Of a stretch of 64,000 nucleotides of DNA, positions 28,569 through 36,882 are shown piece by piece. The notes beneath the pieces are model-generated. The model made no database searches and was not told the DNA's origin. It saw only the letters and a program-made list of their open reading frames with translations. Both the position numbers and the translations under genes were made by a program. The stretch comes from Myxococcales bacterium 68-20 (GTDB taxonomy: Bacteria > Myxococcota_A > Polyangia > Polyangiales > Polyangiaceae): the NCBI GenBank assembly GCA_001899635.1, contig MKVQ01000043.1, forward strand, positions 369,962 to 433,961, in the 5' to 3' direction. Position 1 is the first letter of the stretch. The number at the start of each line of letters is the position of its first letter.

Positions 28569-28572
<4 letters not shown>
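24544..28572 (-). CDS. Large regulator: degenerate HD domain, DUF4388 (PATAN) and C-terminal TPR
   Basis: A 1342-residue cytosolic protein. Residues about 10-460 form a helical HD-like region with MMHDVARP (H268, D269) and YNDLLTPEPG, recalling HD-GYP proteins but without a clear GYP loop, so activity is doubtful. A disordered Pro/Ser linker (about 485-630) follows. The DUF4388 (PATAN) domain at about 633-860 has LAATPLPHVLVYMLDHALTG, SVIFEGTN and IYFVNGVPAKVR. A long Pro/Ala/Gly-rich linker (about 920-1190) precedes TPR-like helices (about 1240-1342; KALFYRGKLLVRTNRLLEAL). The start overlaps the stop of the kinase gene (ATGA), so the two are coupled and probably act in one pathway. Confidence 0.78.
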
Positions 28573-31562
<2,990 letters not shown>

Positions 31563-31825: not shown

Positions 31826-34555
31826 TCAGTCCGGGACGATCGTGGGCTCGCGGACGACCGCGACGACCGCCGCCGCCGCGAGGACGCCGAGCACCGGGAC
31901 GACCGCCGGCGGCACCACACCGAACGCAATGCCGAGCGCGCCGAGGGCCTGGGCAAGGCCGCCCACGACCATCGCCATGCGCGCGCGATCGCGGCAGGCG
32001 CGAGGGATCGTCAGCGAGAGCGCAGCATCGCGAACGTCGTCCGACGCGAGCGCGACTCCCCATTCGCCCGGCGCCGAGCCCGCCGCTTCCATGGCGACCG
32101 AGACGTCGGCTGCGCCGAGCGCGCCGTCGTCGGTCGACGCGTGACCGAGCGCGGCGACGATCCGTCCGCCGTCGGCGAGGGCGCGGACCTCGGCGCCTCG
32201 GTCGACGGGGAGGATCTCCGGGCGTACGTGCTCGATGTCGAGCGCGCGCGCGATGGTCTCGCAGGTGTCGCGTGCCTCTCCACTCAGGAGCACGGGCTCG
32301 ACCCGTGCATCATGCAACCTCTGGACGGCCGCCCGGGCGCCGGGGCGAAGACCGTCCTGGAGCGCGAGGAGACCGACGAGCCGACCGCCGACCGCGACCA
32401 GGAGGACCGAGCGCCCTTCGGCCTCGAGCTGGGATGTCCGCGTATCGGCGATCGCGACGCTCACCCGCTCCTGGAGGAGGAAGGCGCGGCTTCCGACGAT
32501 GACGCGATCGCCGTTCGCTGCCAGAGCCGTGACACCGAGGCCGGAGTGCCCGAGGGCGCTCCGCACGTTGTCGGGACGCACGCCGCGCGCTCTCGCCTCG
32601 CGGAGGATCGCCGACGCGAAGGGATGCGTCGACGACATCTCCGCGCCGGCCGCGATCGCGAGGACACGGGCGATGTCGCTCTCGTCCTTGGCCCCCGGCG
32701 ATTTGCCGAGATACTTCGCGAGTGACGGCGTGGGCGAGCGAAGCCAGCCCTTCGACGAGACGCCCTCCTTCGTGATCGCCTCCACGGCGACGATCTCCGG
32801 CTCGCCGAGCAGGACCGTTCCCCGCGAGCAGAGGACGGCGACGTCGGCGCGCGCTGCAGCGTCGAACGCCTCCGCGTCCTTGTAGACGATGCCACGCCGC
32901 TGCGCCGCCGCGTGACCACGAGCATGCGCGAGCGCCGCCGCCGACACCGCCGTGGCGGCAGCGAGCGTGTAGCCTCCGCCGCACGCAGCGATAGCGACGT
33001 CGAGCCACGATCCGTTGTTGGCATAGACGGCGCCGGCCACGAGGACGCTCGCGGCGGGCGCGCCCCGCTCCACGAACCGCCGGACGAACGCAGGGAGCGG
33101 CGCAGTCGCCTCGATCAGCCTCGCGGCAGGGTCATTCCGCGACGATGCCGACTGCGAGAGCCGCAGCCATGCGCGCTCGCCACCCGAGAACGTCGCGTTG
33201 ACGCGAAGCCGTCCCGAGACGACGACCGCGCCGGCGACGACCGCATGTCCCTCCGACTTTTGCACGAGCGACGGAGAGTCGAGCCACGGAGCGACCTCCG
33301 CCTGCCCTCCGGCAACGACGATCCCGTCGACGGGGATCGTCTCGCCAGCCTCGATGATGACCTGCTCGCCGGGCTTCACGAGGGAGGCATCGACCTCGAC
33401 GGAGCTCTCTCCGCGCACGACGCGCGCGGTGACCGCGAGGCCCTTGCGCGTTCTCGCACGGGCAGCGAGCACGTCACGGCGCGCACGCGACAAGATGATG
33501 TCCACGGCCAGCGCCGACGCGGCAGCCAGCCCGACGAAGCTCGCGTGCGCCTCGGCGTGAGCACCGTGGAGCGCCGCGGAGATGGTCGCGACGACGGACG
33601 CCACGCCGATCGGCCCGAGCACGATCCAGGGAGAAGGCTCGCTCTGGTCGCGCGGACCGAGGATGCGATGCGCGAAGACGACGGCCGCCGCTGCAAGCGC
33701 GAGCGGAAGGCGCAACACCCCCGCCGACTCACCTGCGAGCGACACGACCGACGCGAGCACGCCGGCGAACACACCGACGACCGGCGCGACGGCACCGAGG
33801 CGCCGCGAGAAGCTGCTGCCATTCGCGGCCGCACGCTCGCGACGGGATGCCGGCTCGCTCGCAGGGACGGCCTCGACGTCGGTGACCGATGGCGAGCGAA
33901 GCGTCGAGGGGGACGCGTCGCGATCCCGATCGAGCTCGGGGGCGTGGTCGGAGGGGAGCTCGTCGGCCGAGTCACCTACCGCCTCGCGCGAAGACGCGTC
34001 GACGTCGTGCACCTGGGAAACGTCGCTGACCGGGGGTACCGCACGCACGCTCGGGGGCGTGGCGGTGCGCTCGTCGTCGGCGACGACGCGCTCGTCGTCA
34101 CTGTCCTCGCCGGAGACGTCGTCAGCGAACGTGACGCTCGGCGATGGTAGGCGAAGCTCCGCCGTAGACGAGGCGCGCGACGCTACCGGCGGAAAGAACG
34201 GCGTCTCCTGCGCCGCGCGCTCCCGGCCCGAAGACGGTGCGCGCCCGGCGACCGCCCCGACGTCCTTCGAGGACTGCTCGCGTACACCGCTGATGACGAC
34301 CGGCGGCTGCGCCGAGCGCGCCGCCGACGCGACCGGCGGAGGCTCGGCGGTCATCGCATCCAGCGACGGCCGGATCGACACCGCGTCGACGTAGGCGTTC
34401 TTGCAGTCGGCGTTGCAGAAGTAGCGAAACGCGCCGTCGAGAATCGCAACCTGCCCCGCGCGCAGCGAGTCGACCGGCTTGTCGCAAGCCGGGCACGACG
34501 CCGACGACGCTTCTCGCGTGGACGTGGGCGTGCTCGCTCGTGCGCGCGGATCCAT
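31826..34555 (-). CDS. Catalytically degenerate P1B-type (heavy-metal) ATPase-like protein with N-terminal TRASH/MYM-like zinc finger
   Basis: A 909-residue protein from an ATG at 34555. Residues 21-51 hold CPAC-x22-CNADC, a TRASH/MYM-like metal finger. A disordered acidic linker (about 60-245) leads to four membrane spans (about 255-357), an actuator-like domain (PGEQVIIEAGETIPVDGIVV), two spans (about 500-545), P and N domains, and two C-terminal spans. The order is that of copper/zinc ATPases. The catalytic signatures have changed: TGES is SPSL, CPC is CGG, DKTGTLT is CSRGTVL (Asp to Cys576), TGD is SGE, and GDGxND is GHASTD. The N-domain HP motif (STHPFA) is kept. It cannot pump by the usual phospho-enzyme route. 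A TTG at 34591 could add 12 residues. Confidence 0.85.
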   Translation of the reverse strand: MDPRARASTPTSTREASSASCPACDKPVDSLRAGQVAILDGAFRYFCNADCKNAYVDAVSIRPSLDAMTAEPPPVASAARSAQPPVVISGVREQSSKDVGAVAGRAPSSGRERAAQETPFFPPVASRASSTAELRLPSPSVTFADDVSGEDSDDERVVADDERTATPPSVRAVPPVSDVSQVHDVDASSREAVGDSADELPSDHAPELDRDRDASPSTLRSPSVTDVEAVPASEPASRRERAAANGSSFSRRLGAVAPVVGVFAGVLASVVSLAGESAGVLRLPLALAAAAVVFAHRILGPRDQSEPSPWIVLGPIGVASVVATISAALHGAHAEAHASFVGLAAASALAVDIILSRARRDVLAARARTRKGLAVTARVVRGESSVEVDASLVKPGEQVIIEAGETIPVDGIVVAGGQAEVAPWLDSPSLVQKSEGHAVVAGAVVVSGRLRVNATFSGGERAWLRLSQSASSRNDPAARLIEATAPLPAFVRRFVERGAPAASVLVAGAVYANNGSWLDVAIAACGGGYTLAAATAVSAAALAHARGHAAAQRRGIVYKDAEAFDAAARADVAVLCSRGTVLLGEPEIVAVEAITKEGVSSKGWLRSPTPSLAKYLGKSPGAKDESDIARVLAIAAGAEMSSTHPFASAILREARARGVRPDNVRSALGHSGLGVTALAANGDRVIVGSRAFLLQERVSVAIADTRTSQLEAEGRSVLLVAVGGRLVGLLALQDGLRPGARAAVQRLHDARVEPVLLSGEARDTCETIARALDIEHVRPEILPVDRGAEVRALADGGRIVAALGHASTDDGALGAADVSVAMEAAGSAPGEWGVALASDDVRDAALSLTIPRACRDRARMAMVVGGLAQALGALGIAFGVVPPAVVPVLGVLAAAAVVAVVREPTIVPD

Positions 34556-34699: not shown

Positions 34700-35908
34700 T
34701 CAGCGCGCGAAGGTCGTGAGGACCTTGCGCACGGCGGCGACGCCCTCGGCGAGCTCGGACTCCGTCACGACGAGCGGCGGCGTGAAGCGGATCACCCGCT
34801 CGCCCGCCGCGGTGAGGAGCACGCCCGCGTCGGCGATCTTCGGGAGGATGTCGCGCACGACGAAGCCTTGCTTCAAGACGAGGCCGCGGAGGAGCCCCAC
34901 GCCACGCTCTCCCTCGCACATTTCCGGCAGCTCGCGCGCGAGCTCCGAGAGCATCGCGCCGAGGCGGTCGCCCTTCGCCTTCGCGCCGGCGACGAGGCCC
35001 TCCTCTTCGAGGATCGACAGCACCGCCCTCGCCGCAGCGCTCGCGAACGGGTTGCCGCCGAACGTGGAGCCGTGGGTGCCGGGAGGCAACGCGCCGGCGA
35101 GCTCTTCCGTGGTGAGCATCGCGCCGATGGGACAGCCGCCGCCGAGGCCCTTCGCGAGCGACATCGCGTCCGGCCGGATCGACGTCGACTGGAAGCCGAA
35201 CCAGTGACCGGTGCGGCCGATCCCGGTCTGCACCTCGTCGAGGAGGAGGAGCGCGCCGCGCTCGCTCGTGAGCGAACGGAGCGCCTCGAGGAAGCCCGAC
35301 GGGGCAGGCAGGACACCGCCCTCGCCCTGCACCGGCTCCACGATGATCGCGGCGACGTCGTCACGAAGCTCTGCCTTCACCGCCTCGATGTCGCCGTAGG
35401 CCACGTGGGTCACGCCTTCGACGCCGCCGAATCCCTCACGGTACTTCGGCGTGCCGGTGAGGGAGACCGCGCCCATCGTCCGCCCGTGGAACGCGTTGTG
35501 GAAGGCGATGAAGCGGGTGCGCTTCGTGTCGCCCTTCGCGAAGAAGTGGCGACGGGCGAGCTTGAACATCGCCTCGTTCGCCTCGGCGCCCGAGTTGCAG
35601 AAGAACGCGCGCGCCATCCCGCTGCGCTCGCAGAGCTCGTCGGCGAGCAGCACGTTCTCCTCGTTGTAGAAATAGTTGGAGACGTGCATCACCCGCCCGG
35701 CCTGCTCGGCGAGCGTCGCGACGAGCTTCGGGTGCGCGTGGCCGACCGCGCACACGGCGACGCCGGCGGCGAGGTCGAGCCAGCGGCGTCCGTCGACGTC
35801 GAAGAGCTCGCAGCCCTTCCCTCGCGCGACCACGATCGGCGCGGGCTTGTAGTTGGGGTAGAGACGCTTCTGGGCGATTGCGAGGAGCTCGGCGCTCTTG
35901 GTGCTCAT
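34700..35908 (-). CDS. argD: Acetylornithine/ornithine-type aminotransferase (class III, PLP)
   Basis: A 402-residue fold-type I enzyme. It has the PLP-binding CNSGAEANEAMFKLAR, HNAFHGRTMGAVSLTGTPKYR, IVEPVQGEGGV, LLLDEVQTGIGRTG and the Schiff-base lysine in SLAKGLGGGCPIGA (Lys253), with HGSTFGGNPFASAAA. Length and motifs fit ArgD, which makes N-acetylornithine in arginine synthesis. No other arginine gene is nearby, so ornithine or succinylornithine as substrate cannot be excluded. The ATG at 35908 starts a normal N-terminus; the frame continues upstream to 35992 without homology-like sequence. Confidence 0.85.
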   Translation of the reverse strand: MSTKSAELLAIAQKRLYPNYKPAPIVVARGKGCELFDVDGRRWLDLAAGVAVCAVGHAHPKLVATLAEQAGRVMHVSNYFYNEENVLLADELCERSGMARAFFCNSGAEANEAMFKLARRHFFAKGDTKRTRFIAFHNAFHGRTMGAVSLTGTPKYREGFGGVEGVTHVAYGDIEAVKAELRDDVAAIIVEPVQGEGGVLPAPSGFLEALRSLTSERGALLLLDEVQTGIGRTGHWFGFQSTSIRPDAMSLAKGLGGGCPIGAMLTTEELAGALPPGTHGSTFGGNPFASAAARAVLSILEEEGLVAGAKAKGDRLGAMLSELARELPEMCEGERGVGLLRGLVLKQGFVVRDILPKIADAGVLLTAAGERVIRFTPPLVVTESELAEGVAAVRKVLTTFAR

Positions 35909-36093
35909 GGCGGTCCGGGAGGGTACTTTACGTGCCGCGCCCGCGTCAGGGACAAATGCGGGATCGGCGGGCGTGGCTCGGGCGTGGCTCATACCTCGAG
36001 GGTCACCCCGACCTGGTCTAGCCTGAAGATCCAGATTGTCGAAATCGGGGGTACCAGCGGTCCACCTCGACGCCGCCTCCGCACGCTCGATCG

Positions 36094-36882
36094 TCAGGAT
36101 CGCAGCGCGATCAGCGTTCGCGCGATCTCGGCGAAGCCTTCGCCTCGCTCCGCTCGGGCGACGTAGCGCGGCAGAACGCTGAGCTTGGTGACGAACGCCC
36201 GCACGTTGGCGACGCCGAAGGTCGTCCGGAAGGCGGCGAAGCAGGCCGCATCGTTCGAGCTGTCTCCGACGAAAGCCCAGCGGTAGACGGCACGTCCAGG
36301 GTCCTCACCGAAGCGGTCGCGGAGAAAGCGGACCGCCCCCGACGCCTTGTCGTCACGCTCGAAGGAGGCGTGGAGGTGAACGCTCGAGCGCGTGGTCCGC
36401 GCGCCTTCGGCGACGACGAGACGCCCTAGCGCCTCGACCTGCTCCTCGGGGAGCTTCACCCGCTCGCCGATGTCCCACGCCACGTCCGAACGGCGACCGC
36501 GGACGTCGTCGGCGAGCTCGATCGCGGGCATCGCGACACGGACCTTCGCGACGAGCGCATCGAGCCGCGCGCGGCGCTCCTCGACCTCCGCAGGCGTGCC
36601 GTCCGGGATGACGCGCACGCCGTGGCCCTCACGCACGACGAAGACGGCGCCGTTCTCCGTCACCGCGCCGTCGAGCGGCCACTGGCGAACGAGCACCTCG
36701 GCCCATGCGCTCGGGCGCCCGGTCACGGCGACGAGCGGCAGCCCTGCATCGCGCAGGTCCCAGAGCGCGCCGTACGCGGCTCGCTCGAGCACGCCGTACG
36801 TGAGCACCGTGTCGTCGAGATCGAAGAGGAGGCCCGTGAGCCCGCGCGCTTCTTCGCGCCCGAGGGCCGCGAGCGGCCTCAT
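36094..36882 (-). CDS. HAD-superfamily hydrolase (Cof/MPGP-like type IIB)
   Basis: A 262-residue cytosolic phosphatase-like protein. Motif I is LLFDLDDTVLTYG (about 18-30), motif II is VAVTGRP (about 52-58), and motif IV is FVGDSSNDAACF (about 215-226), all intact. The cap domain between motifs II and IV has ENGAVFVVREGHGVRVIPDG, as in type IIB enzymes such as mannosyl-3-phosphoglycerate phosphatase. The substrate cannot be told. It lies 31 bases downstream of the RlmI-like gene on the same strand. Confidence 0.82.
   Translation of the reverse strand: MRPLAALGREEARGLTGLLFDLDDTVLTYGVLERAAYGALWDLRDAGLPLVAVTGRPSAWAEVLVRQWPLDGAVTENGAVFVVREGHGVRVIPDGTPAEVEERRARLDALVAKVRVAMPAIELADDVRGRRSDVAWDIGERVKLPEEQVEALGRLVVAEGARTTRSSVHLHASFERDDKASGAVRFLRDRFGEDPGRAVYRWAFVGDSSNDAACFAAFRTTFGVANVRAFVTKLSVLPRYVARAERGEGFAEIARTLIALRS

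Follow-up and report, generated by a model that had tools for sequence, protein, structure and literature searches.

A conserved family of P1B-type ATPase relatives without the pump motifs, nearly confined in the genomes sampled to the order Polyangiales

The gene at positions 31826-34555 of the window (the whole stretch of 64,000 nucleotides analyzed, from Myxococcales bacterium 68-20) encodes a member of a conserved pseudo-P1B-ATPase family which, as far as it has been sampled, is nearly confined to one order. The protein's ancestry and predicted fold are those of a P-type ATPase, and the family, judged on the four motif features tested (DKTGT, GDGxND, TGE and CPC/CPx), is not an active pump. 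The reading preferred here, with a probability of about 0.65, is that of a P1B-ATPase that no longer transports and persists as a ligand-binding protein anchored in the membrane; its ligand, its partner and its link to arginine are all inferred. The best inference for its role is a non-transporting membrane sensor, regulator or scaffold, a function likewise inferred.

The minus-strand frame runs from an ATG over 909 amino acids to its stop without internal stops, so that the long intact frame described in the initial annotation was recovered. Matches above the gathering score to two Pfam models, E1-E2_ATPase (PF00122) and HAD Hydrolase (PF00702), were taken as the criterion for P-type ATPase superfamily ancestry, and the protein met it with 54.9 bits (1.1e-14) and 42.9 bits (9.3e-11), respectively. 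Both models were also matched at E <= 0.01 by all 28 members of alignment A1. The score against the NCBIfam heavy-metal ATPase subfamily TIGR01525 was 186 bits, missing the cutoff of 346. The search of PHROGs gave a single, generic ATPase match, and the 4762 records of the plasmid collection matched by the query were all below 60% identity, with none reaching 80% query coverage. The features of the gene and its upstream neighbor are the following:

31826..34555, minus strand: pseudo-P1B-ATPase gene, 909 amino acids, stop included (frame, Pfam, NCBIfam, predicted model, fold match)
34376..34507, minus strand: N-terminal four-Cys finger, L24e/TRASH/MYM-like, residues 17-60 (Cys kept; weak L24e and ZMYM5 matches)
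33854..34372, minus strand: low-confidence linker, residues 62-234 (pLDDT mostly <50)
33437..33844, minus strand: predicted helices MA, MB, M1 and M2, residues 238-373 (model helices)
33146..33430, minus strand: predicted A domain without TGE, residues 376-470 (model and alignment with true pumps)
32897..33100, minus strand: predicted helices M3 and M4 without CPC, residues 486-553 (model and alignment with true pumps)
32021..32896, minus strand: predicted P and N domains, residues 554-845 (model, fold match, conservation)
32816..32830, minus strand: CSRGT replacing DKTGT, residues 576-580 (alignments with orthologues and true pumps)
31850..32020, minus strand: predicted helices M5 and M6, residues 846-902 (model)
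34700..35992, minus strand: argD, acetylornithine transaminase (TIGR00707 449.7 bits, cutoff 410), 144 bases upstream of the pseudo-pump gene

The predicted model of the 909-residue protein had a mean pLDDT of 79.5 and a pTM of 0.72, with 556 of the 909 residues at pLDDT >= 90 and low confidence mainly in the linker. By the model only, with pLDDT mostly above 90 in these parts, the protein has A, P and N domains together with eight membrane helices. Its best solved structural relatives were P-type pumps, and the best match was the CopA structure 7r0g (Z 26.6, 618 residues aligned, rmsd 9.3), in agreement with the proposal that the P1B fold has been kept. The rmsd of 9.3 may reflect a different arrangement of the domains.

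Orthologues were collected from relatives of the window's genome and from GTDB genomes, where the search yielded 60 loci, including Labilithrix, Polyangium, Sorangium cellulosum and Minicystis rosea. Two of these genera, Labilithrix and Sorangium, are members of the order Polyangiales. After dropping rows more than 97% identical, a non-redundant set of 79 sequences, the window's counted in, was obtained. The true pumps L088-L093, L095-L097 and L189 were left out, as were an Ancylobacter sequence of 26% identity (L159), two fragments (L048 and L098) and L094, which gave no hit. Eighteen of the 20 fetched pump loci were used, L191 and L193 being without a DKTGT frame. With a profile built from alignment A2, the lowest score among the 79 members was 319 bits and the highest among 30 true pumps 229 bits. 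One orthologue, L055, has a long low-complexity linker rich in Asp, Ala and Ser, which may account for the adhesin-model matches of one member.

Within the order, which includes pseudo-pump-bearing strains of Sorangium, Polyangium and Minicystis, 159 of 183 genomes gave a match at E 1e-50 or better, and 148 of them at E 2.4e-82 (278 bits) or better, above each of the 30 true pumps. The motif check covered only part of those 148 genomes. In a class sample of 144 genomes, order members included, only G181, from another family of the class, reached 1e-60 beyond the order; this candidate (2.4e-66) has DKTGT and was rejected as a true pump. Profile matches below 270 bits were therefore excluded from membership, a threshold that also excludes real but divergent members such as L233 (181 bits) and L236 (164 bits). 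A search with the finger in 377 genomes of the phylum detected L222 and L223, a pair of divergent relatives from a different family of the class; both retain the finger, the P and N domains and membrane helices. The family-profile match skips their A domain, and by this match they would have lost that domain too. The same search found divergent members inside the order, two with MHGTL (L233) and LHGTL (L236) near the place of DKTGT and two without DKTG (L234 and L235); these six sequences stand outside the set of 79. The finger profile also matches a true pump, L230, which has DKTG and CPC.

When the window protein was aligned with 28 true pumps, three of the replacements proposed in the initial annotation fell in the columns expected: C576-S-R-G-T at DKTGT, S758-G-E at TGD and G804-H-A-S-T-D at GDGxND. 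The losses of TGE and CPC also held, but not the residues assigned to them, since the true TGE column is L425-D426-S427 and not SPSL, and CGG lies a few residues upstream of the aligned A532-A533-A534. The HP motif (H644-P645) and the CxxC...CxxxC finger (C21, C24, C47 and C51), both said to remain, were found in place, and the GxG of the N domain (G672 and G674) is also retained.

The same losses extend to the orthologues. Asp was absent from position 576 in all 77 readable sequences of the 79 (window protein included), and no acid occupied either the catalytic (576) or the Mg-binding (805) Asp position in any of 76, the window protein having H805. Glu at position 427 of TGE was found in 0 of 75 orthologues; in the alignment subset, it was present in 28/28 pumps vs 0/46 pseudo-pumps. 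For CPC/CPx in M4, a TPC string was seen only in L084 among the 79 rows. A string search of the 79 orthologues for DKTG, TGE[SAP] and GDGxND returned nothing but a TGEA string in L071 and L154. No DKTG is present elsewhere in the window protein, and none of the 79 orthologues has intact motifs, so neither observation that would have spoken for a displaced motif or a recent pseudogene was made. At the level of sequence, the catalytic, Mg-binding, dephosphorylation and metal-pathway residues are lost throughout the family. The pseudo-enzyme reading of the initial annotation is thus upheld by the loss in all readable orthologues, by selection on the frame (see below) and by the fold kept in the model, while its further suggestion of a role in sensing metal or nucleotide, or in regulating a true pump, is still an inference.

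The distribution of conservation was then compared, as one minus the scaled entropy, between 46 pseudo-pumps and 24 true pumps (four of the 28, L089, L092, L093 and L096, were omitted). The membrane helices of the pseudo-pumps were less conserved than those of the pumps (M4, 0.44 vs 0.84; M5, 0.52 vs 0.78; M6, 0.50 vs 0.86), and the A domain gave 0.54 vs 0.72. In the P domain the values were 0.71 vs 0.73 for the C-terminal part and 0.65 vs 0.70 for the N-terminal part, in the N domain they were 0.62 vs 0.59, and the finger of the 46 pseudo-pumps reached 0.61. The common polar residues of the pseudo-pump helices are mainly Arg. As read from these alignments, it is the P/N headpiece and the finger that are constrained, not the membrane path, the pattern to be expected of a protein that would not move ions but would have its head in use.

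Additionally, the active site has been rebuilt with basic residues. Of 77 pseudo-pumps, 69 have Arg and 8 have His at the third position of DKTGT (578), which is Thr in 28/28 pumps; at position 805, a basic residue (His, Arg or Lys) replaces the Mg Asp of all 28 pumps in 69 of 78; and position 786 is Arg in 72 of 79, vs Lys in 28/28 pumps. The Arg after SG(D/E), at 762, is found in 77/79 pseudo-pumps and in 11/28 pumps. Of 76 pseudo-pumps, 60 have a basic residue at all four positions and 74 at three or more. Arguing by homology with P-type ATPases, and with no coordinates inspected, we take these four positions to surround the phosphorylation site. The N-domain glycines are retained (G672 in 77/78 and G674 in 78/78 orthologues); of the adenine-site residues, Glu639 is kept in 66/78 and His644 in only 53/78, which makes nucleotide a candidate ligand, though an uncertain one whose binding may not be general.

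The finger itself is kept. All 71 orthologue rows that cover Cys21 and Cys24 have both cysteines; for Cys47 and for Cys51 the count is 70 of 72, and for R32 and A33 it is 71 of 72 each. Modeled alone, it gave beta strands followed by a helix, with a mean pLDDT of 84.9. Its resemblance to ribosomal L24e (profile E 0.013; Foldseek E 0.08, not significant) and to the TRASH/MYM finger of ZMYM5 (profile E 0.3; Foldseek E 0.48) was weak, no Foldseek match was obtained at 0.001 or better, and its Pfam scores of 17.1 and 15.1 were under the 27-bit cutoffs. Of the defining trait of such fingers, four metal-binding Cys in a treble-clef-like fold, the Cys are retained and the predicted fold is similar, though short of significance. 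The proposed TRASH/MYM identity is accordingly supported by sequence and fold, but weakly. Like the L24e/TRASH/MYM zinc fingers, it has the four-Cys pattern and, in the model, beta strands and then a helix; unlike them, it falls below the Pfam cutoffs and has a DPLRAxxV signature of its own.

From these features a mechanism can be inferred for the ligand-binding protein preferred here. The finger would bind metal, probably zinc, although binding is unproved, and the headpiece may still bind nucleotide or another phosphate-bearing anion without Mg, in a pocket presumably made basic by R578, R762, R786 and H/R805. The ligand state of finger and headpiece would be relayed to a partner, in a role that would be regulatory or scaffolding and not one of transport. 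The likeliest partner process is inferred to be arginine supply, because the gene often adjoins argD/argF or argH. A more specific version is a two-input membrane switch of the Polyangiales, in which the finger and a Mg-independent basic nucleotide or anion pocket in a dead P1B headpiece would inform arginine synthesis of the state of metal and of energy (or phosphate); we regard this version as speculative and rather doubtful.

The neighborhood was counted in 78 loci, the window not included. With a limit of 1 kb, 46 of them have argD upstream in the same orientation, and 23 have a Fur-family gene downstream, which in 18 shares the strand of the pseudo-pump. Ten loci have argH inside this limit, either downstream and co-oriented (8) or upstream on the opposite strand (2), and lysA lies beyond argH in 7 loci. 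Five loci list argD downstream with a gap negative by more than 3 kb; these were read as argD within an over-extended frame and are outside the 46. The counts are lower bounds, since several fetched contigs stop beside the gene, and the gaps to Fur are overstated because the Fur marker was shortened by 50 residues. The neighbors were named by NCBIfam on one protein each: the window argD, argF, argH and lysA were above the cutoff, and no Fur, PerR or Zur cutoff was reached by the one Fur-family protein searched. argF was not included in the count; of 14 loci inspected, 7 (L060, L067, L070, L131, L134, L139 and L156) have an ArgF-like frame that separates argD from the pseudo-pump. In L224, argD and argF precede the finger. 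In ten further loci from other families, argH adjoins the gene in 5, Fur in 1 and neither in 4. The linkage to differing arginine genes across families hints at an old arginine operon, absent in some families. In the window, a Ser/Thr kinase gene (28569-31562, minus strand), with a kinase domain and a long C-terminal part, lies downstream of the pseudo-pump, and relatives of this kinase are downstream in 15 of the 78 loci. An HAD-IIB family hydrolase gene (36094-36882, minus strand; TIGR01484 48.9 bits, cutoff 41.8) is also found near argD in the window.

The frequency of argD and argH in these counts, including the argH of five of the ten further loci, would suit a simple membrane anchor that holds ArgD, ArgF or ArgH without sensing any ligand. 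We consider this unlikely: the fetched flanks of nine loci (L063, L068, L080, L083, L084, L243, L244, L246 and L247) gave no match to argD, argF or argH, and an anchor leaves the conserved finger and the basic pocket unexplained. The protein could instead regulate or pair with a true metal pump, with the finger as its metal sensor. The fold shared with P1B pumps, the Fur-family gene in 23/78 loci and the presence elsewhere in the window's genome of at least six other P-type ATPase genes, five of them with the P1B motif set, are compatible with such a partner, but no pump was found among the named recurring neighbors of the pseudo-pump, and we place this explanation after the anchor as improbable.

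A pump with altered chemistry, in which Cys576 or another residue substitutes for the Asp, has little left to support it. Cys is indeed the commonest residue at 576, being found in 56 of the 77 readable orthologues, followed by Ser in 10 and others in 11. However, the 21 of the 77 without Cys do not have Asp either (Leu, Val, Ala, Phe and Met are among the residues found), the Mg Asp, TGE and CPC are gone as well, and the conservation of M4 and M6 is lost, all of which make this possibility very remote.

The 46 pseudo-pumps and 28 true pumps were separated in a tree by one branch (SH-aLRT 100), so that a single origin is the simplest account; the tree took 46 of the 79 rows by a quick method, was drawn with a midpoint root, and no alternative topology was compared. 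Of 15 pairs, the nine with dS <= 0.30 gave dN/dS values (Nei-Gojobori) of 0.076-0.280, and the six more distant ones (dS 0.54-0.79) gave values of 0.069-0.445. The nine close pairs span only two groups, five being Polyangium-type and four Sorangium-type. This pattern is unlike that of a drifting pseudogene, and in the relatives compared the gene is under purifying selection. The motif loss of the window protein might suggest a pseudogene in decay or a loss that arose recently in a single lineage; this was rejected as hardly tenable, since all readable orthologues share the loss, dN/dS is well under 1 and the frame has no stops; a displaced catalytic motif was rejected as well on the orthologue motif counts and the string search.

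Dead kinases and phosphatases showed that enzymes can persist as regulators. For P-type ATPases, a dead yet conserved ion pump in 148 of the 183 sampled genomes of the order would be a well-sampled bacterial case, and it raises the question of the role of a pump headpiece that cannot be phosphorylated. Searches of an open-access library, with most subscription papers outside its scope, listed no title on a catalytically dead bacterial P-type ATPase. With P1B-type ATPases such as CopA and ZntA (PDB 7r0g, 4bbj and 4umv), the pseudo-pump shares the domain order, the fold in the model, the HP and GxG of the N domain and the SG(D/E) loop; it differs from them in lacking DKTGT, TGE, CPC and GDGxND, in conservation placed in the headpiece and in basic rather than acidic active-site positions. 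Human TMEM94/ERMA also has P-type-like A, P and N domains and misses TGES, but it is eukaryotic and has ten helices, and only a resemblance is meant, no homology having been established. No ATPase activity is reported to have been detected for TMEM94/ERMA, with a micromolar affinity for AMPPCP (PMC12134183); another paper terms it a Mg ATPase (PMC13322241). The apicomplexan guanylyl cyclase with an appended P4-ATPase domain likewise has a P-type-ATPase module, there in signaling; that domain is reported to keep the conserved Asp, which is apparently needed (PMC7858053).

Fingers of the same kind were also observed in non-pump proteins. L225-L229, from family f23 of the class, have a CPxCGxxVDPxRAxxV-type finger (CPTCQKPVDPLRSRFV in L229), joined to a probable membrane segment and to a repetitive C-terminal region which, judged by eye, resembles HEAT repeats. 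By the same kind of inspection, L231 and L232 are ParA/MinD-like ATPases with two N-terminal TRASH-like fingers each.
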